Notes under the pieces: model-generated | What the model was told of the DNA's origin: nothing | Databases searched by the model: none | The model's input: the letters and a program-made list of their open reading frames with translations, nothing else | Made by a program: the position numbers and the translations under genes | Part shown: in pieces, positions 1 through 10,780 of the stretch | Numbering within the stretch: the first letter of the stretch is position 1 | Layout: every line of letters begins with the position of its first letter | Source: Acidovorax sp. Root219 | GTDB lineage: Bacteria > Pseudomonadota > Gammaproteobacteria > Burkholderiales > Burkholderiaceae_C | Assembly: GCF_001428665.1 (NCBI RefSeq) | Contig: NZ_LMIJ01000014.1 | Coordinates: 1 to 64,000 of the forward strand | Length of the DNA: 64,000 nucleotides | Reading direction: 5' to 3'

Positions 1-306
1 GAGGGCGGCGACGCCGCGCTGCCGGACCAACTGTGCATAACTGCGTGCTGTGCATAACGCTGCAAAGCCGCCACTGAGCGGTAGCGTGCGCAAGGACAGC
101 CTCGGCCGATAGCGGGAGTCTAGCTGGTCGCGCGAGTGTCCTGTATCACCCAAGAAGGCGACTCGGCGAAGCTGCTCATCGGCGACGACCTGGGCATGGC
201 CACTAGAGCCGTTCTCGGTGTCCAGTTCCCGCCGTTGCGGCTGTCCAACTCAATTCGCCCCCGCTGACCAGCAGCGACCGAAATACGCAGCAAGCCACAA
301 CGCCGG
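1..306. other. No supported gene; accessory DNA with a short direct repeat
   Basis: No reading frame on either strand here looks like a protein. The partner gene that often follows mobile mystery protein A (a Fic-like 'mobile mystery protein B') was looked for on the minus strand downstream of the regulator; the frames are short and interrupted, and no Fic motif is visible. The only structure seen is an 11-base direct repeat near the left edge. Confidence 0.5.
31..58. repeat. Two 11-bp direct repeats, DnaA-box-like on the minus strand
   Basis: CTGTGCATAAC occurs at 31-41 and again at 48-58, a 17-bp period. On the minus strand each copy contains TTATGCACA, one base away from the consensus DnaA box TTATCCACA. 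Seen in sequence; any role in replication or at a mobile element end is speculation. Confidence 0.5.
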
Positions 307-801
307 CTACCAAAATGCGCGTTGGTCGATGCGTGAAAGAAGCGAGGCGAGCACAACCAGCGACTGGCCGTCAATGTTCATCGGGGTGCTGCCTGCCCCC
401 ATCGGAACCGCGCCTTTGGAGTGCTCCATGGCTCGCGCCATCACCTGGTCGACCAAGCTGATCCTGGGCACCAGAACGTACCGCACGTCGCAGTTCAACC
501 CATCTGCAATCTTGGCCAGGGTGTTGAGAGAAATTGAGCCATCAGCTTCCGACTTTTCAAGCTGCCTGACTCCTTGCGGAGAGATGCCGATGCGTCGACC
601 CAAGGTCTCAGAGTTCATCCCCAGAGCCAGGCGCACAGTCTTCACCCACCCGCTCCTGGGCGTGCCTGGACCCTGCAGCTTCGCTAGTTCGCGAAACTGG
701 CTGTCGAGTTCAACCAAGCGGGAAAGATCCAATCGATTCTTCAAGGGCGAGTGGCAGCGAAAGTTCAAAACAACACTCTGATTGCGCAGATGTCTTCGCA
801 A
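307..801 (-). CDS. XRE-type HTH regulator, mobile mystery protein A-like
   Basis: Cytoplasmic DNA-binding protein of 164 residues. The central region (about residues 50-105) is an XRE helix-turn-helix with the pattern W-V-x-x-V-R-x-A-L-G-M, then S-x-Q-G-V-x-x-L-E-K-S-E-A-D-G, then a C-terminal L-V-P-R-x-S-L segment. This order matches the family annotated as 'mobile mystery protein A', usually found on mobile DNA beside a Fic-like partner. The partner is not visible downstream. The first residues are atypical, so an internal start near codon 12 (GTG) is possible. The family call comes from memory of the motif order, not from a search. Confidence 0.7.
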   Translation of the reverse strand: MRRHLRNQSVVLNFRCHSPLKNRLDLSRLVELDSQFRELAKLQGPGTPRSGWVKTVRLALGMNSETLGRRIGISPQGVRQLEKSEADGSISLNTLAKIADGLNCDVRYVLVPRISLVDQVMARAMEHSKGAVPMGAGSTPMNIDGQSLVVLASLLSRIDQRAFW

Positions 802-917
802 GGCAAGTGGGAGCTTTCCATTTGCGCTGGACCGCCTTGAAACGGGTTTTGCGCGGAGAAAGTTCAGCTATCTTCGCACGCTCAGTCCCAAACAGGACCA
901 ACTAGTCCCCTAAATAT

Positions 918-1391
918 TTGACGAGTATGTTGCAGTTAGACAAAGAACAGATCGGCCATTTCAGCGAGATGGACCTGGAAGAAATCCTTCAAACCGGTGG
1001 CTTTGATGCAATCCTTCCAAGAAGCCTTAGCGACGGCCAATTGGTGTGTGTTTCCGATCAACTTCGGGCCATGCTGTGGGGAGAAGGCACACGAGGTCCC
1101 GACGGCGAACCCAATGCAGCGATCGCGATGGCGTTGCTGTTGATAGCAAAGGCACATCCGTCGCCTCCCGTAAATGGCGAACTCATTTTTGAAGGCAGCC
1201 TTGAGCAGTTACGCGACGTGATGATGGTGCTCAGCATGGCCGCAGACCGCGAGATCGTGAACAGACTGCTCAATCGCCCAAACGACGACGAATCGTTGTC
1301 CATGCTGACAGGAATTGAAGCCATCATGGTCGGAGAAAGTTCTCCATCGCAGCCAAGAAGGGCTAAGCGACGTCCTCAGGCAGCAGTGTAG
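918..1391 (+). CDS. Hypothetical protein (157 aa)
   Basis: Not recognised. The frame opens with TTG at 918 and has an in-frame ATG at 927 three codons later; the ATG is equally likely to be the true start. The product is acidic at the N terminus, has a hydrophobic helix around residues 68-77 (alternating A, M and L), and ends in a basic tail (R-R-A-K-R-R-P). No signal peptide or metal motif is seen. It is convergent with the XRE regulator at 1363-1674 and the two frames overlap by 29 bases at their 3' ends. Confidence 0.55.
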   Translation: MTSMLQLDKEQIGHFSEMDLEEILQTGGFDAILPRSLSDGQLVCVSDQLRAMLWGEGTRGPDGEPNAAIAMALLLIAKAHPSPPVNGELIFEGSLEQLRDVMMVLSMAADREIVNRLLNRPNDDESLSMLTGIEAIMVGESSPSQPRRAKRRPQAAV

Positions 1392-1674
1392 AGAGATCGG
1401 TTCGGACGGACTTCAGCACCTTCTCAATCGATGCTGCATCGAATCTGCGCGCGTATGCCACCGCAAGGAGAGTCATTGGATGAACCTGCAGGCCTTCAGC
1501 GAGGTGCTCCACCATGCCAATGCTGGGGAGCTGCTCGCCCTGCTCGAGACGCCCAATGTGCCGCCGGCTGATCGCCGGTGTCAGATCCTCCTGCGTGAAG
1601 CCGCGTGCGGTGCGCAGCTCCTTGAGCGCGCGACCGACAGCAGCTTTCGGTGGATCTGACTTTCGAGTTGGCAT
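1363..1674 (-). CDS. XRE family helix-turn-helix regulator
   Basis: Small cytoplasmic DNA-binding protein of 103 residues. Residues 14-60 form an XRE/Cro-CI helix-turn-helix: V-G-R-A-L-K-E-L-R-T-x-R-G-F-T-Q-E-D-L, then R-R-H-I-G-R-L-E-Q-G-E-Q-L-P-S-I. The C-terminal 40 residues are helical and probably dimerise. It may regulate itself or the convergent gene at 918-1391; such pairs occur in toxin-antitoxin modules, but no toxin fold is recognised. An inverted repeat at 1732-1753, 58 bp upstream of the start, is a candidate operator. Confidence 0.8.
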   Translation of the reverse strand: MPTRKSDPPKAAVGRALKELRTARGFTQEDLTPAISRRHIGRLEQGEQLPSIGMVEHLAEGLQVHPMTLLAVAYARRFDAASIEKVLKSVRTDLSTLLPEDVA

Positions 1675-1731
1675 TCACTCGATTTCCGCCGATGGAGACT
1701 TAAAAGACCACGTCTAACTAGTCGCATTCTG

Positions 1732-1753
1732 GTGGAAATTTGATGATTTCCAC
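1732..1753. promoter_or_regulatory. Perfect inverted repeat upstream of the XRE gene
   Basis: GTGGAAAT at 1732-1739 is mirrored by ATTTCCAC at 1746-1753 around a 6-base centre. It lies upstream of the minus-strand XRE gene, so it may be an operator; the absence of a T-run argues against a terminator. Confidence 0.4.
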
Positions 1754-1910
1754 TTCCGAATGGCTGCCGAAGAGTCCCCAAGCCAGTGTTTATCAGCCTT
1801 GGACTGACCCTCGATTTGGATAAGCACTTCTGCATCGCACTGCAGCGAATCACCGCAAACGGGGAACTACAGCCTGTTCGCCCACCTGATCAAAAACAAG
1901 GTACTGCATC

Positions 1911-2291
1911 GTGCAGATTCAATTTCTCAATGAGCGTCCCGCCCCCGATGTTCAAGTTCAGCCCGAGGTCCAACTGGACCATTGGCGAATCCTTCAACGT
2001 GGAACCGGGACGCTGCACATCGTCGCGATGCTGGGCCCTATGACACTCAGGGTTACTTCGGCCTTGGCTGCCATTGATCTTGCGAGCGCAATGGTCAAGA
2101 CGGGATCAGGTCGCAACTATCACCTCGCAGCACCGCCCGAAGAAGACAAGGAGCTGCGGATGTTGATGGAGCTGCGTGGCAAGCTTGCCATCGGGACGGT
2201 TTCGGCTGATGTGAGCGATGGCGTCTGGCACGCGGTATCTGTCGGCTCGTGGCCAGACCATGGCGGCGGGCTACTGCCACCCTGGCAATAG
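1911..2291 (+). CDS. Hypothetical protein (126 aa)
   Basis: Not recognised. The start is GTG at 1911 with an AAGGTAC purine stretch about 8 bases upstream. The product has no signal peptide and no obvious membrane span. It ends in W-P-D-H-G-G-G-L-L-P-P-W-Q, and the region around residues 45-62 is hydrophobic (T-L-R-V-T-S-A-L-A-A-I-D-L-A). It is the first frame of the rightward phosphoesterase group, ending 22 bases before the likely start of the next gene, which suggests co-transcription. Moderate support only: correct spacing and no better frame in this interval. Confidence 0.5.
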   Translation: MQIQFLNERPAPDVQVQPEVQLDHWRILQRGTGTLHIVAMLGPMTLRVTSALAAIDLASAMVKTGSGRNYHLAAPPEEDKELRMLMELRGKLAIGTVSADVSDGVWHAVSVGSWPDHGGGLLPPWQ

Positions 2292-2313
2292 TTCCGTTTC
2301 CTTACTACGCACT

Positions 2314-2973
2314 ATGGATTTCAACGACGCACTGAACCTATTTCAGCGCACTCTGGCCACGGAGCGATCCCGGCCCGATGTGCACGCTGCGATGCTGGAC
2401 CTCGCCAATCCCGACATCATCAACGATGCCAGCTCTCAGGTCGTGAATGCCCTGACCCGCGGTGAGCGGGTATGGATGACGTCCGATCTGCACCTGGGCC
2501 ACGCCAACCTGATCGAGTACAGCAAGCGGCCTTTTTTCGACGTCATGCAGATGAACGAGCACATCATCACCCAGATCCAGAAGGTCAAGGACGACGAATG
2601 GCTGCTGATTCTCGGGGACCTGGCCATGGGCGACCACGACGAGGCCATGGAGTGGATCCGACGCCTTCCGGGCCGCAAGGTCCTGGTCCTCGGGAACCAC
2701 GACCTCAAGCGCAATGGCAAGTGCCTCTACGTGAGGGAACGCGCGCTGCAGGGGCGGCAACCACTGTTCGACGCAGTGGTCCCATTTCTGTTCTGGCAAG
2801 ACATGCTGGGTCGGACCGTGTTTGCGAGCCACTATCCGGCGACGGTGGACCACGGTTTCCGCAGGCTTGTGAACTACCACGGCCACTTGCACCGCGACGT
2901 GCTGGCTCCCACCGAAATCACCCATTTTGTGAATGTGGGCTGGGACGTCACCCAAGGATTGTTATGCCTTTGA
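2314..2973 (+). CDS. Metallophosphoesterase
   Basis: Calcineurin-like phosphoesterase of 219 residues counted from the ATG at 2314; a longer frame opens at 2218 but overlaps the preceding gene. The metal-site motifs occur in canonical order: S-D-L-H-L-G-H, then G-D-L-A-M, then G-N-H-D-L, then H-Y-P, then H-G-H-L-H-R. The 50 residues before the first motif form a helical N-terminal extension. Its last 10 bases overlap the next gene. The substrate is unknown; the family hydrolyses phosphomono- or diesters of nucleotides, nucleic acids or proteins. Accessory location and a second phosphoesterase next door suggest a shared substrate (inference). Confidence 0.85.
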   Translation: MDFNDALNLFQRTLATERSRPDVHAAMLDLANPDIINDASSQVVNALTRGERVWMTSDLHLGHANLIEYSKRPFFDVMQMNEHIITQIQKVKDDEWLLILGDLAMGDHDEAMEWIRRLPGRKVLVLGNHDLKRNGKCLYVRERALQGRQPLFDAVVPFLFWQDMLGRTVFASHYPATVDHGFRRLVNYHGHLHRDVLAPTEITHFVNVGWDVTQGLLCL

Positions 2974-3254
2974 ACCCTCAATCCTTCAGTAAGCGATTCG
3001 AGCCCGAGCGCAGAGCGCACATCGACAGTCGCAACCGCATCCCCTTGCCGCCGGGCATGGGTTGGAAGGTGGGAGCCCGCGTGTACTTCTCGCTGGCCAG
3101 GAGTAGCGCTGACGGGGACGAACCACCAGAGTTCGTGATCACAACCAAACCAGGGATGCTGCTGAAAGGGAGATTGGTTTCCGCACGCATTCAGCGCGCT
3201 GGCTTCGCGCCGATGGTCAGGGCGCGCAGGAAGCCTCGCCGCTGTTGGCCATGA
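2964..3254 (+). CDS. Small AbrB-like hypothetical protein
   Basis: A 96-residue product starting at ATG 2964, inside the 3' end of the upstream phosphoesterase, and ending in an ATGA overlap with a possible start of the next gene; both overlaps suggest translational coupling. The core D-S-R-N-R-I-P-L-P-x-G-x-G-W-K-V-G-A-R-V-Y-F resembles the swapped-hairpin barrel of AbrB/MazE-type DNA-binding proteins, followed by F-V-I-T-T-K-P-G. The basic C terminus (R-A-R-R-K-P-R-R) would suit nucleic-acid binding. The AbrB likeness is inferred from pattern only. Confidence 0.65.
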   Translation: MPLNPQSFSKRFEPERRAHIDSRNRIPLPPGMGWKVGARVYFSLARSSADGDEPPEFVITTKPGMLLKGRLVSARIQRAGFAPMVRARRKPRRCWP

Positions 3255-4084
3255 GTCCGCGCAACGCCTTCAACAGAGCCTCCATGAAACTGCTCGTTTA
3301 CTCGGACCTGCACCTGGACCTGTGTCCCTTCAAGCTGCAGCTGGACCCGGACTTTCTCAAAACCGTCGACGTGGTCGTGCTGGCAGGTGACACCACCGAA
3401 GGCACGGGCGGGCTTCGTTGGGCGCGTGAGACATTTCCGGGCAAGCCCATCATCTACGTGGACGGCAACCATGAGTTCTACAGCCAACATTGGGATAAGC
3501 ACATTGATGTGATGCGCAAGCTGGCCCAGGATCACGAAGTCCACTACCTGGAGAACGATGCCGTTTTGATCGGCGGTGTGCGGGTTCTGGGGTGCACGCT
3601 CTGGACGGACTACGCACTGCACGGCGCCGAAGAGAAGCTGATTGCGATGAACACGGCGCGCCATCGCATGAGCGACTACCAGCGGATCAAGATCACGCGA
3701 CCGCCGGAGATGTATTGGCAGGAACGCAAGCACCGACTGGTCCCGGCGACGGCTGGGCGCCGGCACGACTCCAGCAGACTTTGGCTGGAGGAGCAACTGG
3801 GCCTGGGTGATCCAGAGAACACGGTGGTGGTCACCCACCATGCACCGCATCCGCGATCAATCCCGCAGGAGTTTGAAGGGCACCCGCTGTCACCTTGTTA
3901 CGCGAGCGACCTGGAAGCGCTTATGGGAAAGGCCGGCACCTGGATCCATGGGCACATCCACGAGAGCCTGGACTACCAAGTGTGGGGGACCCGGATCGTT
4001 ACCAACCCCAGGGGGTACAGGCTCCGGGGCGGTGGCATGCAGAACCCGGAGTTCCGGGCGGATTTCTGTGTGGATGTGGGCTGA
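3251..4084 (+). CDS. Metallophosphoesterase
   Basis: Second calcineurin-like phosphoesterase (277 aa from ATG 3251; ATG 3284 would give 266 aa beginning directly at the M-K-L-L-V-Y-S-D-L-H-L core). The 3251 start overlaps the upstream stop as ATGA. Metal-binding motifs in order: S-D-L-H-L, A-G-D-T, D-G-N-H-E-F-Y, T-H-H-A-P-H, and a terminal H-G-H-I-H. The insert between the third and fourth motifs contains W-T-D-Y and a helical segment seen in Ser/Thr phosphatase-like family members. It shares little with the first phosphoesterase outside the metal site. Substrate unknown. Confidence 0.87.
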   Translation: MSPRNAFNRASMKLLVYSDLHLDLCPFKLQLDPDFLKTVDVVVLAGDTTEGTGGLRWARETFPGKPIIYVDGNHEFYSQHWDKHIDVMRKLAQDHEVHYLENDAVLIGGVRVLGCTLWTDYALHGAEEKLIAMNTARHRMSDYQRIKITRPPEMYWQERKHRLVPATAGRRHDSSRLWLEEQLGLGDPENTVVVTHHAPHPRSIPQEFEGHPLSPCYASDLEALMGKAGTWIHGHIHESLDYQVWGTRIVTNPRGYRLRGGGMQNPEFRADFCVDVG

Positions 4085-4190
4085 ACGCCGCTGCTCCGCG
4101 TCAGGAAGCACGCGAAGTGCTCATCACCGATGGTGTACTCGCCGGCGCCACTTGCACAATCGCAATGAGATTATTTAAAGGATCATCGAC

Positions 4191-4820
4191 ATGAGCATCA
4201 AGCCAATCATCGCCCTGGATGCGGATGGGGTGTTGCTTGACTATGGCCTAGCCTATGCCTCGGTCTGGGAGCGGGCATTTGGCCAGCGGCCGGTCGAGCG
4301 GGACAAGGACGCTTATTTCCCGTTTAACCGCTGGGCGGTTGAGTTTCTGGATGGGGATCGCCTGGCAGCATTGCGGGCCCGCATGGACGAGCAGTTCTGG
4401 TCTTGTGTGCCCCCCTTGGAGCGAGCTGTTGATGCCTGTCATCGGCTTCACGATGCGGGCTATGAGCTGGTATGTGTCTCGGCTCTGTCCCCGCAGTTCG
4501 AAACGGCGCGCCTCAGGAACCTGCGGGATGCGGGGTTTCCGATCGAGCGCGTGATCGCCACGGGAGTAGCTGCAGGGGCGCGAAGCCCGAAGGCTGATGC
4601 GATTGAACTACTTGGGCCAGTGGCGTTCATTGATGACTTCCTGCCGTACTTTCGTGGGATCGCTCCGAGCGTCCATCGCGCACTGATCTGCCGCGGTCCG
4701 AACGGAAGCCCCAACGTCGGACCGGAGCTCGACCAGATCCATTCCTTGCACGCTAATCTGTGGGAGTTCAGCGAGTGGATGCGGGTCCATGGCAGCTTAC
4801 TGCCGTCGAGGGCGGTGTAG
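4191..4820 (+). CDS. HAD-superfamily hydrolase
   Basis: A 209-residue protein with HAD motif I (A-L-D-A-D-G-V-L-L-D-Y, residues 8-18; nucleophile Asp10 and general acid Asp12), motif II serine in V-C-V-S-A-L, a lysine in S-P-K-A-D-A, and a motif IV acidic pair in F-I-D-D-F. Probably a small phosphatase; substrate unknown. AAAGGATC upstream of ATG 4191 is a good ribosome binding site. It lies 106 bases after the second phosphoesterase on the same strand, so three hydrolases of phosphate esters sit in a row. Confidence 0.85.
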   Translation: MSIKPIIALDADGVLLDYGLAYASVWERAFGQRPVERDKDAYFPFNRWAVEFLDGDRLAALRARMDEQFWSCVPPLERAVDACHRLHDAGYELVCVSALSPQFETARLRNLRDAGFPIERVIATGVAAGARSPKADAIELLGPVAFIDDFLPYFRGIAPSVHRALICRGPNGSPNVGPELDQIHSLHANLWEFSEWMRVHGSLLPSRAV

Positions 4821-4973
4821 CCCGGTGGTAGGCCGATTAACTAGCGCTTAGAGGCACGAGGCCACAAGGGCAATCGGCTTCAGGCAGCTGACGCCGGATT
4901 TCACCGGGCGTACGCAAGGTATTGGCTTGTCTGCTGGTGTTGGCACGTGCCTGCATGCTGGTGCGCAAAGCCC

Positions 4974-7382
4974 CTATTTCTTCCAAGACCGCAACGTCAG
5001 GGCGTTGGTCACAACACTCACACTGCTCAACGCCATGGCAGCCCCAGCCACCATCGGGTTCAGCAAGCCAAACGCTGCCAATGGGATTCCCACCACGTTG
5101 TAGGCAAACGCCCAGAACAGGTTCTGCCGGATCTTGGCGTACGTGCGCCGGGAAATATCAATGGCATCCGCGATCAGTGCCGGGTCGCCGCGCATCAGAG
5201 TGATCCCCGCTGCGTGCATTGCCACGTCCGTGCCGGTGGACATGGCGATCCCCACGTCTGCAGCTGCCAGCGCAGGGGCGTCGTTGATGCCGTCGCCCAC
5301 CATGGCGACGACCCTGCCTCCTCCCTTGAGTTGCGCAACGATTGCGGCCTTGCCCTCTGGCAAAACATCAGCACGAACCTGGTCGATACTTAAAGCGCCC
5401 GCCACCATCGCTGCGCTACCCTGGTTGTCGCCAGTCACCAGGACGGTCTTGATGCCCAGCGCTTGCAATTGGGCAATGGCCTGTTGGGAGGTTGCCTTGA
5501 CGGTGTCACCGAACGCCAACATTCCGAGTACCTCTGGCGAATCGGTCACATCGGCCAGCCATGACACGGTACGACCTTGTTGCTGCATTTGTGCAGCGGC
5601 TACCGCCAGACTTTTCGTGTTGACCCCCAGCTCATTCATGTACCGGGTACTGCCCAAGCGAATCTGACGCCCTTTGACCACAGCGGACATCCCTCGTCCA
5701 GCCACGGCGGTTACTTCGGTGGCCCGGGGCACCACGATCGCCTGGGTGCGCGCGGCATCCATCACGGCCTTGGCCAGAGGATGCTCACTGCCGTTCTGGA
5801 TGGCTGCGGCAAACGGCAGCAGGTGCTCCTTGCCTCCCTCGGCAGGGACCGCGGCCGCGAGAGTCGGCTTCCCCTCGGTCAGCGTACCGGTCTTGTCGAA
5901 TGCCACGGTGTCGATGCGGTGCGCCGTTTCAAGTGCTTCGGCATCCTTGATCAGAATGCCATGGCGCGCCGCTACACCAGTGCCCGCCATGATCGCGGTG
6001 GGGGTTGCCAAACCCAGAGCACAAGGACATGCGATGACGAGCACTGCTACGGCATTAAGGATCGCTTGTTCCCAGTTGCCCGTGGCAACACCCCAGCCCA
6101 TCAGCGTGAGCACGGCAAGGCCAAGCACCACAGGAACGAACACGGCACTGACTTTGTCCACCATGCGCTGGATAGGTGCCTTTTTGGCCTGTGCCGACTC
6201 GACCATGCGCACGATGCGCGACAGTGTTGACTCGGCGCCGATGGCGGTCGTTTGGACCAGCAGCAGGCCTTCCGCGTTCACGGCTCCTCCCGTTACCTTG
6301 TCTCCAACAAGCTTCGCGACAGGAAGACTTTCACCGGTGATCAGCGATTCGTCCACCTGGCTGGAGCCTTCGACCACCGTGCCGTCCACCGGAATTCTTT
6401 CCCCTGGGCGAACCACCACTGTGTCGCCCACTCTCACCCGCGCGAGCGGCTGGTCGATGTCGCCCTCTGGTGTGCGCACACGCGCCACTTCGGGCCGCAG
6501 AGCATGCAGCGCCCGGATGGCCGCCGTGGTTTGCCTCTTGGCCCTTGCCTCCAGCCACTTTCCCAAAAGGACGAGCGTGACGATGACGGCGGAAGCCTCG
6601 AAGTACAGGTGGGGCGTTCCATGCTCGGCATGCTTGAAGAGCAGATACAGGCTCAGGCCGTACCCAGCCGAGGTACCCAGCGCCACCAGCAAGTCCATGT
6701 TTCCCGCGCCTGCGCGCAGCGCCTTCCAGCCTGCCCGGTAAAACCGCGCACCCAGCCAGAACTGCACCGGCGTAGCCAAAGCCAGCTGAATCCATCCGCT
6801 CAGACTCCAGTCCTGACCAAATACCATGCCCAGCATGGGGAGCACCAGTGGCACAGACAGGAACGCGGCGAGCGCGACGGGCCACCAGGGCTCTGCATGG
6901 GTCTTGTGGTCCGCAGGCGCATTCGCGTCCACCACCTCTGCCTGGTAGCCAGCCTTCTCGATGGCTGCTACCAGTCGATCAATCGTCAATCCCGCAGCAA
7001 AACGGACTTGCGCGCGCTCGTTGGCCAGATTGACTTCGGCATGCGTCACACCGGGCAAGGCCTTCAGGGCTTTTTCTACGCGACCGACGCAGGAAGCGCA
7101 CGTCATGCCACCGACGGACAGCTCCACTGACTCATCGGCCACTGAGTAGCCAGCCTTTTGCACTGCCGCGGTCAGGGTGGGTACTGCAACGGAAGCTGCG
7201 GCCACCACGCTGGCACGCTCGGTAGCGATGTTCACGGTCACATCCTGGACGCCAGGCACGGCTTTGAGGGCCTTCTCGACCCGCCCGACGCAGGAGGCAC
7301 AGGTCATGCCGAGGATTGGCAGGTCCAGGAGTGCTGTTGGTAGGGAGTTGGCTAGCGTCGCGTCATGGACAGCGGAATTCAT
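4974..7382 (-). CDS. copA: Cu(I)-translocating P1B-type ATPase
   Basis: Inner-membrane Cu(I)/Ag(I) exporter of about 802 residues. Two N-terminal HMA domains carry [15 protein letters not shown] (Cys28/31 and Cys95/98). The transport motif C-P-C is at residues 452-454, followed by the phosphorylation loop D-K-T-G-T-L-T-E-G, the S-E-H-P-L-A motif and [10 protein letters not shown] chose the start at 7382 because GGAGAC lies just upstream, and because a longer frame to 7460 would run through a CueR-type operator at 7441-7458. It is divergent from copZ and cueR, which probably control it. Its two metal-binding domains are strongly alike over the Cys helix. Confidence 0.96.
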
Positions 7383-8466: not shown

Positions 8467-8805
8467 CTACTTGGCGAGATCAATGGCCGTCACGACCATC
8501 TTTCCGCCTTCACTGACCACCATGAAGCGAACCTTGTCGCCGACCTGTACCTTGTCGAGCAGCGTCTTGTCCTTGGCGTTGAACACCATGGTCATGCCCG
8601 GCATCTCCAGGTGCTTGATCTCACCGTGCTTGATGGTGATCTTGCTGGTGTCCTTGTCGATCTTGCGAACTTCGCCATCGGTCATCGAGGCCGCGGCGGG
8701 GGAGGACTTGGCGGCGTCGGTTGCGGCTTGAGCCATGGCCGAGACTGGCAGCAGCGCGGCCAGCGAAAGCACAGCAGCGGCGATAGTGGTGTTGGCTTGC
8801 TTCAT
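8467..8805 (-). CDS. cusF: CusF-like periplasmic copper-binding protein
   Basis: A 112-residue exported protein: signal peptide about residues 1-26 (A-M-A-Q cleavage), then an OB-fold CusF domain. The metal region is I-T-I-K-H-G-E-I-K-H-L-E-M-P-G-M-T-M-V-F, giving His60, Met71 and Met73 in the places of the CusF ligands. The tryptophan that caps Cu(I) in E. coli CusF is replaced by Met68, with an extra His65. AAGGAATA precedes the start. It is the last gene of the minus-strand periplasmic copper operon and probably hands Cu(I)/Ag(I) to efflux components. Confidence 0.88.
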   Translation of the reverse strand: MKQANTTIAAAVLSLAALLPVSAMAQAATDAAKSSPAAASMTDGEVRKIDKDTSKITIKHGEIKHLEMPGMTMVFNAKDKTLLDKVQVGDKVRFMVVSEGGKMVVTAIDLAK

Positions 8806-8846
8806 AAATATTCCTTGTTCAGTGGGTTGGTGCACTAACACGGGGG

Positions 8847-9332
8847 TTACTTCTTGGAGACCTTGACCTGGCCCTTCATGCCTGCGTCGTAGTGGCCTGG
8901 GTACAGGCATGCGAAATTCACATCACCGGCCTTGGTGAATTGCCAGATGATCTCGCCCTGTTTGCCTGGCGCGAGGGAGATCTTGCTTGGCTCGTCATGT
9001 TCCATCTCCGGAAACTTCTTCATGACCTCGTAGTGCTCCTTGAGCTCGGCCTCCGTGCCCAGGCTGAACTCGTGTTTGACTTGGCCGGAGTTCTTGATCA
9101 CGAAGCGGATGGTCTCGCCCTGCTTGGCGGCGATGGTCGCCGGCGTGAAGCGCATGGTGTCGGACATTTCGACATTCACGGTGCGGCTGACCTTGCCGGC
9201 TTTGCCTGGCTGACCGATGGCCGACTCCGCACTACCGTGGCCATGGCCGCCCCCGTGGTTGCCGCCGGCGAAGCTGTTGAAGGACATGGCCACCAAGGCG
9301 GAGGCTGCGATCAGGGAAAGGGTGCGTTTCAT
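8847..9332 (-). CDS. copI: Periplasmic cupredoxin, CopI-like
   Basis: A 161-residue exported cupredoxin. After a signal peptide ending near residue 22 comes a His-rich stretch (H-G-G-G-H-G-H-G), then a plastocyanin/azurin-type fold. A type-1 copper site is visible: His87 (V-K-H-E-F), Cys142, His147 and Met152 in F-A-C-L-Y-P-G-H-Y-D-A-G-M. This matches the CopI family, described as needed for copper tolerance in purple beta-proteobacteria. Downstream of the multicopper oxidase (35-base gap), it could accept electrons or copper from it (inference). Confidence 0.85.
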   Translation of the reverse strand: MKRTLSLIAASALVAMSFNSFAGGNHGGGHGHGSAESAIGQPGKAGKVSRTVNVEMSDTMRFTPATIAAKQGETIRFVIKNSGQVKHEFSLGTEAELKEHYEVMKKFPEMEHDEPSKISLAPGKQGEIIWQFTKAGDVNFACLYPGHYDAGMKGQVKVSKK

Positions 9333-9367
9333 GAGTACCTCGTGGAGTGAATCAGGGAGATGGGTTT

Positions 9368-10780
9368 TCAGTGCCCGTTATGGGACGAAGGCTTTCTGGC
9401 CTTGACGACGGTGTCGGAGGCGGACTGGTCCTTGCGTGGCATGGACTGCCCGCCCTCGGCCTTGAAGCGGGCTGGCTCGGCGACCGGCCCGGTGTACTCG
9501 TAGGCGACCGTGCCTTCGGGGTGCTTGTACCAACCAGGGTTCTTGTAGTCGCCTGGCTTTTGGTCGCGGCGTACCTTGACGACGCTGAACATGCCGCCCA
9601 TCTCGACCGACCCGAAGGGGCCTTCGCCCGTCATCATCGGAATGGTGTTGTCGGGGATGGGCATCTCCATCTCCGTCATGTCCGCCATGCCGCGCTCACC
9701 CATCACCATGTAGTCGGGAATGAGGTTGTTGATCTTCTTGGCCACCCCCCGGTGGTCCACGCCGATCATGGTGGGAATGTCGTGCCCCATCGCGTTCATG
9801 GTGTGGTGGCTCTTGTGGCAGTGGAAGGCCCAGTCGCCTTCTTCGTCCGCCAGGAATTCGATCTGGCGCATCTGGCCGACCGCCACGTCCGTGGTCACCT
9901 CATACATCCGGGTGCTCTTGGGCGTGGGACCGCCATCCGAGCCAGTCACGAGGAACTCGTGGCCGTGCAAGTGGATGGGGTGGTTGGTCATGGTCAGATT
10001 GCCGATGCGCATGCGCACCTTGTCGTTCAGGCGCACGTTCAGGGAGTCGATGCCCGGGAAGATGCGGCTGTTCCAACTCCACAGGTTGAAGTCGAGCATG
10101 GTCATGATCTTGGGCGTGTAGCTCCCAGGATCGATGTCAAAGGCGTTGAGCAGGAAGCAGAAGTCGCGCTGCACCTCGTCAATCAGCGGATGCTTGGATT
10201 TGGGATGCGTGATCCAAAAGCCCATCATGCCCATGGCCATCTGGGTCATTTCATCAGCATGCGGGTGGTACATGAAGGTGCCCGGACGGCGTGCAACGAA
10301 TTCGTAGACGAAGGTCTTGCCCGGCTGGATGGCGGGCTGGTTCAGGCCTGCCACGCCGTCCATGCCATTGGGCAGGCGTTGCCCGTGCCAGTGGATGCTG
10401 GTGTGCTCGGACAGCTTGTTGGTCACGAAGATGCGCACGCGGTCGCCTTCCACCACTTCGATGGTGGGGCCAGGGCTTTGGCCGTTGTAGCCCCACAGAT
10501 GGGCCTTGAAGCCGGGGGCCATTTCTCGCACCACGGGTTCGGCCACCAGATGGAACTCCTTGACGCCCTGGTTCATGCGCCAAGGCAAGGTCCAGCCGTT
10601 GAGCGTGACCACGGGGTTGTAAGGGCGCCCGGAGTTAGGAACCAGTGGCGCCATGGTGTCTGGACTTGTCTGGAAAACAGGCTCCGGCAAAGCCGCCATT
10701 GCCACCCGACTCACGCTCGCTGCCGCCACTGCCCCGCCGGCGATACCTGCAAAGCGAAAAAAATCTCTTCTCGAACTCAT
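9368..10780 (-). CDS. Multicopper oxidase, Tat-exported
   Basis: A 470-residue periplasmic oxidase, likely oxidising Cu(I). It begins with a twin-arginine signal (S-R-R-D-F-F-R-F). Copper motifs occur in the usual order: H-W-H-G (130-133), H-P-H-A-D (172-176), N-H-P-I-H-L-H-G-H-E-F (267-277) and H-C-H-K-S-H-H with Met331 (320-331). In most family members the last motif lies near the C terminus; here about 140 residues follow, rich in Met (G-E-R-G-M-A-D-M-T-E-M-E-M-P). That tail could bind substrate copper. It sits between a TolC-like gene and the cupredoxin gene in one operon. Confidence 0.92.
   Translation of the reverse strand: MSSRRDFFRFAGIAGGAVAAASVSRVAMAALPEPVFQTSPDTMAPLVPNSGRPYNPVVTLNGWTLPWRMNQGVKEFHLVAEPVVREMAPGFKAHLWGYNGQSPGPTIEVVEGDRVRIFVTNKLSEHTSIHWHGQRLPNGMDGVAGLNQPAIQPGKTFVYEFVARRPGTFMYHPHADEMTQMAMGMMGFWITHPKSKHPLIDEVQRDFCFLLNAFDIDPGSYTPKIMTMLDFNLWSWNSRIFPGIDSLNVRLNDKVRMRIGNLTMTNHPIHLHGHEFLVTGSDGGPTPKSTRMYEVTTDVAVGQMRQIEFLADEEGDWAFHCHKSHHTMNAMGHDIPTMIGVDHRGVAKKINNLIPDYMVMGERGMADMTEMEMPIPDNTIPMMTGEGPFGSVEMGGMFSVVKVRRDQKPGDYKNPGWYKHPEGTVAYEYTGPVAEPARFKAEGGQSMPRKDQSASDTVVKARKPSSHNGH

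Follow-up and report, generated by a model that had tools for sequence, protein, structure and literature searches.

A mobile phosphoesterase gene cluster of Acidovorax sp. Root219 with a possible role in the clean-up of RNA ends

Two metallophosphoesterases, a small protein and a HAD phosphatase are encoded in one cluster

We analysed a window of 64,000 nucleotides from Acidovorax sp. Root219 (contig NZ_LMIJ01000014.1, positions 1 to 64,000 of the forward strand), which carries a cluster of four genes on the plus strand. The first gene, MPE1 (2314-2973, 219 amino acids (aa)), encodes a calcineurin-like metallophosphoesterase (MPE) with an N-terminal extension of about 50 aa. It is followed by a gene for a small protein of 96 aa (2964-3254), by MPE2, a second metallophosphoesterase gene (3251-4084, 277 aa, with an alternative inner ATG at 3284), and by a gene for a HAD-superfamily phosphatase (4191-4820, 209 aa). 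MPE1 and the small gene overlap by 10 bases and the stop codon of the small gene overlaps the start of MPE2 by 4 bases (ATGA), which confirms the coordinates and the coupling of two metallophosphoesterases through a small gene, with the HAD next, that the original prediction had described. MPE2 and the HAD gene are separated by 106 bases. A simple scan of positions 1500-5000 for promoters and terminators gave nothing above shuffles.

The window proteins were compared with the Pfam, PHROGs, NCBIfam and PADLOC profile libraries, and negatives were read at E≤1. Both metallophosphoesterases passed the PF00149 cut-off of 21.5 bits (MPE1 31.7, MPE2 40.1), and they matched phrog_547 (MPE1, 4e-36) and phrog_1649 (MPE2, 1.5e-42). 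The HAD protein scored 24.2 bits against PF00702 (E 4.9e-05), just below the cut-off of 26.4, and matched phrog_420, whose function is not annotated, at 3e-11. None of the four proteins had a match above cut-off in NCBIfam. The pattern D, H, D, N-H, H, H-x-H, which we take to be the metal-ligand motif set of calcineurin-like enzymes, is invariant in the alignments of both MPE1 (9 sequences; D58, H60, D102, N128, H129, H173, H191 and H193) and MPE2 (13 sequences). In the HAD protein the DxD, K and DD residues (D10, D12, K134, D148 and D149), presumably the catalytic motifs, are invariant in 5 sequences. From these invariant active-site residues, MPE1, MPE2 and the HAD protein are probably active enzymes.

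Relatives are labelled below by locus (L), genome (G, with G000 the carrier genome) and contig (C). Ratios of nonsynonymous to synonymous substitution (dN/dS) were calculated against other loci and were below 1 for all four genes. Compared with L002, a contig of an Acidovorax metagenome-assembled genome, they were 0.13 for MPE1, 0.41 for the small gene (a value that rests on 7 changes), 0.20 for MPE2 and 0.22 for the HAD gene; compared with L003 they were 0.21 for MPE1, 0.40 for the small gene and 0.16 for MPE2. With a further value of 0.58 against L005, the small gene is therefore the weakest case for selection.

The structure model of MPE2 (predicted local distance difference test score, pLDDT, 85.2) had its best fold match in the PDB with PptH (6unc; Z 21.6, root-mean-square deviation 3.1, 240 aligned residues, 18% identity), and the two proteins also matched in sequence at 5.7e-5. 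The next matches were aq_1956, MPPED2, Mre11 and Rv0805, with Z of 15-17 (the best of these 17.0). Pnkp was absent among the PDB matches listed, which excludes nothing. The fold alone names no substrate for MPE2. For the HAD protein, the resemblance to 5'(3')-deoxyribonucleotidases was weak and non-significant, and no PDB profile hit reached significance.

The small protein had no match at E≤1 in any of the four profile libraries and no plasmid match at E≤0.01, and its structure model was unusable (mean pLDDT 52.7). It had been labelled AbrB-like, a label that we could not substantiate and did not retain: neither the libraries nor the model supported it, and no AbrB chain was among the five hits of a PDB profile search (up to E 10), although a family of four sequences gives such searches little power.

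MPE1 and MPE2 form the core of a variable gene group

Nine loci emerged when genome contigs were scanned with MPE1, and L010 (a 27-residue match) was discarded from them. Together with a genome search, and with L017 removed as it shares a contig with L007, this resulted in a set of 14 MPE1 loci including the window. MPE1 is rare, with 7 places in 6 of 399 genomes of the family at E≤1e-10. The original prediction had named genes lying apart in other genomes, with no shared neighbourhood, as the finding that would speak against it; instead, MPE2 relatives were found near MPE1 at 13 of the 14 loci, the exception being L019. The order MPE1-small gene-MPE2 is repeated in L002, L003 and L005, and the window and these three loci are the only ones of the 14 with the small gene. 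A window-type HAD gene is intact in two (window and L002), interrupted by a stop codon in L006 and present as a fragment in L005, so that the complete four-gene set occurs in 2 of the 14 loci. The gene order was thus recovered elsewhere for the first three genes, whereas the set of four is not fixed, and MPE1 and MPE2 form the core to which the rest is variable. The largest number of MPE2 copies is three, reached at L009 and at L008, where the contig end truncates one copy. At L007/L017 an insertion of IS66 splits the MPE2 gene beside MPE1.

HADs of the Swiss-army-knife (SAK) type, the RNA-repair HADs of PF18143, lie within 6 kb of MPE1 at seven of the 14 loci (L005, L007, L008, L009, L018, L020 and L021). 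The MPE2 profile matches 347 of the 399 genomes, in a high-scoring band and a lower band that is apparently housekeeping; PF18143 matches 73 of the 399 and had no match in 14 control genomes. We determined the pairing of both families from the 104 listed MPE2 places of at least 195 bits. Among these, 21, spread over 13 genomes, have a listed PF18143 place within 6 kb, and 26 of the 118 listed PF18143 places lie near such an MPE2, where an arithmetic estimate from the counts and a mean genome of 4.4 Mb would give about 0.1 places. Most listed places are accordingly unpaired (83 of 104 for MPE2 and 92 of 118 for PF18143). At L062 a protein of 412 aa (8733-9971) has two PF18143 matches.

Other genes recur in this company. 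In 32 loci, a biased sample as most of L061-L078 were chosen for MPE2/HAD_SAK neighbours or a high MPE2 score, an AAA ATPase was found in 10, a CxxC protein of about 180 aa in 12 and a third MPE type in 7. The CxxC protein has a KEKFGxLRxY-like motif and a CxxC pair (for instance L009:604-1476, L018:3495-3989 and L066:8979-9635); the one member tested had no Pfam match, and the PHROGs match was at most weak. Among the plasmid matches that were opened, we found HTH-AAA-MPE-MPE in Sphaerotilus, an overlapping HAD-MPE2 pair in Bosea, HAD-unknown-MPE-DHHA1 in Variovorax and an AAA gene, three genes and an MPE in Polaromonas, and an MPE2 relative without such company in Azoarcus. The whole cluster was not found on plasmids: a search with window positions 1-5000 gave three records with partial matches only.

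When viral contigs were scanned for the patterns of the HAD and MPE1 alignments, no relatives emerged. Phage records contained distant MPE relatives and three HAD matches at 24-26% identity; in an Alteromonas phage a gene distantly related to that of the HAD lies one gene behind a metallo-dependent phosphatase. Two MPE2 relatives that were opened in giant phages (L079, Caulobacter; L080, Brevundimonas) have tRNA arrays on both sides, and a peptide deformylase gene is a few genes away. With the viral scans empty and only distant MPE and HAD relatives in phages, phages share the families and the exact gene set was not seen there, which is why we rejected a phage origin of this set.

Relatives of the cluster lie beside RNA-repair genes

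The family of the window HAD occurs at 51 places in 46 of the 399 genomes. At five loci (L081, L107, L100, L117 and L118) it lies directly behind KptA, an RNA 2'-phosphotransferase. Two of these, L081 and L107, share one plasmid of Acidovorax DW039. A Nudix gene is located within about 2.2 kb at L081, L100, L117 and L118, and an ADP-ribosylglycohydrolase gene at L081, L100 and L117. Among the 46 genomes with this HAD family, KptA is present in five and directly precedes the HAD gene in three. The DW039 plasmid also has three copies of one HU-HTH flank (81-100% identical): two follow KptA-HAD, and the third follows an MPE2-SAK-SAK group, the last SAK gene of which is on the opposite strand.

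Two further links were found. L064 carries on one strand an orf126-like gene (see below), a PF18143 HAD, a SIR2 gene (4.1e-42), a window-type HAD and MPE2. In G254 a gene for RlaP (G254:C1:715252-715917), named RNA repair pathway polymerase in Pfam, shares its strand with three MPE2 genes at a distance of 0.3 kb. The carrier genome itself encodes RtcB followed by RlaP (G000:C10:106455-108465) away from the window, a gene of the RNA_ligase family on C30 and a single SIR2 match on another contig, C47. We also considered a sirtuin or ligase as a regular partner. Among 19 genomes with MPE1 or high-scoring MPE2 loci, SIR2 was near the cluster in one (L064), and the RtcB and RNA_ligase matches were not near the clusters, so this candidate was rejected.

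Similar combinations have been predicted to function in RNA repair: for phage neighbourhoods of sirtuin, SAK HAD and calcineurin-like genes, the predicted task is the resolution of cyclic phosphates or the processing of ADPr>P (PMC9503650, section 3.7.3). In PMC7824862, SAK HADs are credited with taking off terminal phosphates. Among the substrates of vertebrate metallophosphatases are ADP-ribose and, hydrolysed less well, 2',3'-cAMP (PMC4334965), so that such chemistry is within reach of the MPE fold.

The neighbourhoods of relatives are rich in defence families

We compared the neighbours of relatives with PADLOC, at 15 loci chosen from those in hand with up to seven open reading frames (ORFs) each, selected by a filter on GC content at third codon positions; the test covers relatives and excludes the flanks of the cluster in the window. 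L067 gave no ORF and L066 one. The 92 ORFs of the resulting 14 loci matched 70 PADLOC families at E≤1e-10; 97 ORFs from 15 displaced regions of the same contigs matched 6, none better than 6e-29. These are families and not proteins or genes: one gene can match several models and TnsB and TniQ are counted too, so that the 70 families do not give a number of defence genes. Among the 25 families listed were CBASS cyclase, E1-E2 and phospholipase models, PD-T7-1, type II methyltransferase, IetA and PDC-S14. Integrase and transposition families were present among the same ORFs (Pfam, without a control run).

At L074 (7586-11615) an MPE2-type gene lies 1.4 kb from a Cap2-like CBASS E1-E2 gene, and on its other side are genes homologous to a Tn7-like set of L003. 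HipA is present at L003 and L005. The best PADLOC match of the eight window proteins was that of MPE2 to PDC-S10 (2.3e-10, model positions 6-111 of 223).

The cluster is part of a conserved mobile unit

The cluster and its regulators lie in a unit (305-4828) that aligns with L002 at 92.8% identity over 4528 blastn columns, with sharp ends on both sides and different flanks. In L002 a Tn3 transposase gene is located upstream of the unit, and Tn7-like, Tn3 and insertion sequence genes are present at some relatives. The placement in mobile DNA that had been read from the window alone is in agreement with these edges and with the transposition genes of relatives. Two XRE-type regulators, also predicted beforehand, are encoded upstream of the cluster on the minus strand. 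The first (307-801) resembles 'mobile mystery protein A' (PF01381 37.2 bits, above cut-off; TIGR02612 96.8, below the cut-off of 122.6). The second, an XRE/helix-turn-helix protein of 103 aa (1363-1674; PF13560 39.5 bits, above cut-off), has an identical counterpart in L002. Between them, on the plus strand, is an ORF of 157 aa (918-1391) with no match at E≤1 in the four libraries and a dN/dS of 0.26 against L002.

Directly before MPE1 lies orf126 (1911-2291, plus strand), which encodes a small accessory protein that recurs at other loci, with aligned relatives in L002, L006, L008, L064, L065 and L076. Two more related modules in the carrier genome, L094 and L106, also have orf126 relatives: in L094 together with a HAD 81% identical to that of the window, in L106 with a PF18143 HAD and a MobA-like gene.

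Two repeats precede the unit. The first (1-63), at the contig end, has 100% copies at the ends of C13 and C40 and part-copies in C25 and C40, and is probably a transposon end. The second, a dispersed repeat of about 195 bases just outside the unit (96-291), has copies of 71-80% in C5, C1 and C18 and partial copies in C34 of the carrier genome. We had the impression that some of these copies adjoin short ORFs in arrays that resemble integron cassettes. Directly downstream of the unit, from 4974 to about 43 kb, a heavy-metal resistance region was recognised by eye, with genes for a copper ATPase, two-component regulators, resistance-nodulation-division pumps and other metal ATPases.

Discussion

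Because relatives of the cluster sit beside RNA-repair and anti-phage genes, the cluster could well clean broken RNA ends or related nucleotides. Our best reading, tentatively held, is therefore a mobile phosphoesterase module with a clean-up role for RNA ends or ADP-ribose phosphates. An RNase, such as a toxin, an anticodon nuclease or a defence effector, would leave a 2',3'-cyclic phosphate on RNA. The HAD would take off the remaining monoester, and joining and rebuilding would be done by host enzymes. The gene structure, the selection, the conserved active-site residues, the conserved company and the RNA-repair and defence neighbours of relatives are observed; within this scheme we infer the substrates, the order of steps, the regulation, the benefit to the element and any contribution by the small protein or orf126.

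Several observations weigh against a clean-up role. The original prediction of nucleic-acid end-processing is supported by PF18143 HADs, KptA, a sirtuin and RlaP at relatives, but by none of these within the window itself. In the window unit no ligase, kinase, KptA or sirtuin was recognised with Pfam, and the whole carrier genome has no PF01885 (KptA) match at E≤1e-5. The window HAD was rejected as a SAK HAD (no PF18143 match at E≤1, hhalign probability 11%). At 47 of the 51 places of its family there is no listed MPE2 of at least 195 bits within 6 kb, as judged by eye, and in two of the five KptA genomes KptA lies away from the HAD gene. The link to a sirtuin and that to RlaP each come from one locus, and the RlaP reading of G254 contains one in-frame stop. 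RtcB is present in 4 and RNA_ligase in 1 of the 19 genomes that were compared for SIR2 and ligases. RtcB moreover joins phosphate-bearing ends, so that phosphate removal would not help it. The closest solved relative of MPE2, PptH, is not an RNA enzyme. Finally, the proposed role in phage conflict fits the defence-rich neighbourhoods of relatives but gains no support from the flanks of the unit in the window, where a contig end lies on one side, a metal-resistance region on the other, and no defence genes.

A different role in conflict would be that the phosphoesterases degrade nucleotide signals, such as cyclic dinucleotides or cyclic ADP-ribose, either on behalf of an element that evades defence or to restrain a neighbouring defence system. 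Rv0805, which hydrolyses cyclic nucleotides, is among the closest folds of MPE2. The CBASS E1-E2 gene near the MPE2 relative of L074 is consistent with this role, as are the CBASS cyclase and phospholipase matches, pooled over loci, among the neighbours of relatives, and jumbo-phage calcineurin-like phosphodiesterases are predicted to act in this way (PMC7824862). However, L074 is the one located CBASS neighbour, and such a role leaves the company of KptA, RlaP and SAK HADs unexplained, as well as the combination of two MPEs with a HAD. We consider it unlikely.

The same enzymes might also be independent small-molecule phosphatases, PptH-like and nucleotidase-like, gathered as metabolic cargo on mobile DNA without one pathway. 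The lead of PptH over the next folds of MPE2, together with its sequence match, points in this direction, and so do the deoxyribonucleotidase resemblance of the HAD, the varying composition of the cluster and the solitary Azoarcus plasmid gene. Against it speak the recurrence of these families together in several genera and on several plasmids, the overlapping genes and the links to RNA-repair genes, and we regard this explanation as distinctly improbable. Least probable, in our judgement, is that the cluster is itself a defence or toxin-antitoxin system, acting by nucleotide depletion or by damage to the nucleic acid of phages: defence-rich flanks at relatives, HipA at L003 and L005, the PDC-S10 match and a phage metallophosphoesterase that damages host DNA (PMC12287305) would fit, but no known toxin or sensor domain was recognised in the window unit with Pfam, the PDC-S10 match is weak although it is the best PADLOC match of the window proteins, and several duplicated and shuffled phosphatase types would fit clean-up more than killing.

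If the cluster does clean RNA ends, its nearest counterpart would be the predicted phage NAD-dependent RNA-repair neighbourhoods of a sirtuin and a SAK HAD, sometimes with a calcineurin-like phosphoesterase (PMC9503650, section 3.7.3). As there, calcineurin-like phosphoesterases are found with HADs here, and L064 joins a PF18143 HAD, SIR2, a HAD and MPE2. Unlike there, we find bacterial mobile islands with arrays of several MPEs, with an AAA ATPase (10 of 32 loci) and the CxxC protein (12 of 32), and no sirtuin, 2H, cREC or ligase was recognised in the window unit. Our best reading is therefore a bacterial variant of these neighbourhoods, and not a member by the presence of a sirtuin or a SAK HAD.

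The cluster also shares its HAD family with the KptA/Tpt1 systems that carry Nudix and ADP-ribosylglycohydrolase genes (L081, L100 and L117); there the HAD lies directly behind KptA, whereas here MPEs precede it and window and carrier genome have no KptA match. The phosphatase of Pnkp is metallophosphoesterase-like. In the bacterial Pnkp-Hen1 and Pnkp1-Rnl-Hen1 systems a phosphatase heals ends before ligation, as proposed here (PMC4411300), but no kinase, methyltransferase or ligase was recognised in the window cluster. RNA ligases of the Rtc, Pnkp or T4 sealing type were not recognised in the window unit; RtcB and RNA_ligase lie on C10 and C30. PDC-S10, presumably the code of a candidate single-gene phage defence, is matched by MPE2 over half of the model only, and MPE2 sits in an operon. 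PptH is the closest solved fold and hydrolyses phosphopantetheinyl groups, its substrate in M. tuberculosis being a carrier protein (PMC8557913), but no carrier-protein gene was recognised in the unit 305-4828. In the literature, which we searched mostly without subscription papers so that the negative is weak, we met no report combining Tn7-like elements, cargo, phosphoesterase and defence, and no description of an MPE/HAD/AAA defence system.

A broader proposal, somewhat doubtful at present, is that bacterial mobile elements carry a modular and so far undescribed system for RNA-end clean-up, of which the window holds one version. It would consist of MPE arrays and HADs, in fuller versions with the AAA ATPase and the CxxC protein, would be interchangeable with KptA-HAD and would shield the host of the element against immunity or toxins that act through RNases. 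That KptA/Tpt1 occurs in bacteria has been termed a longstanding conundrum (PMC6333775). In our loci its gene stands more than once directly before a gene of a HAD family whose members elsewhere accompany metallophosphoesterases in mobile clusters. If this reading holds, bacterial chemistry of the KptA type would gain partners and substrates that can be tested, and it would suggest that RNA-end repair kits are carried by bacterial mobile elements and not only by phages.

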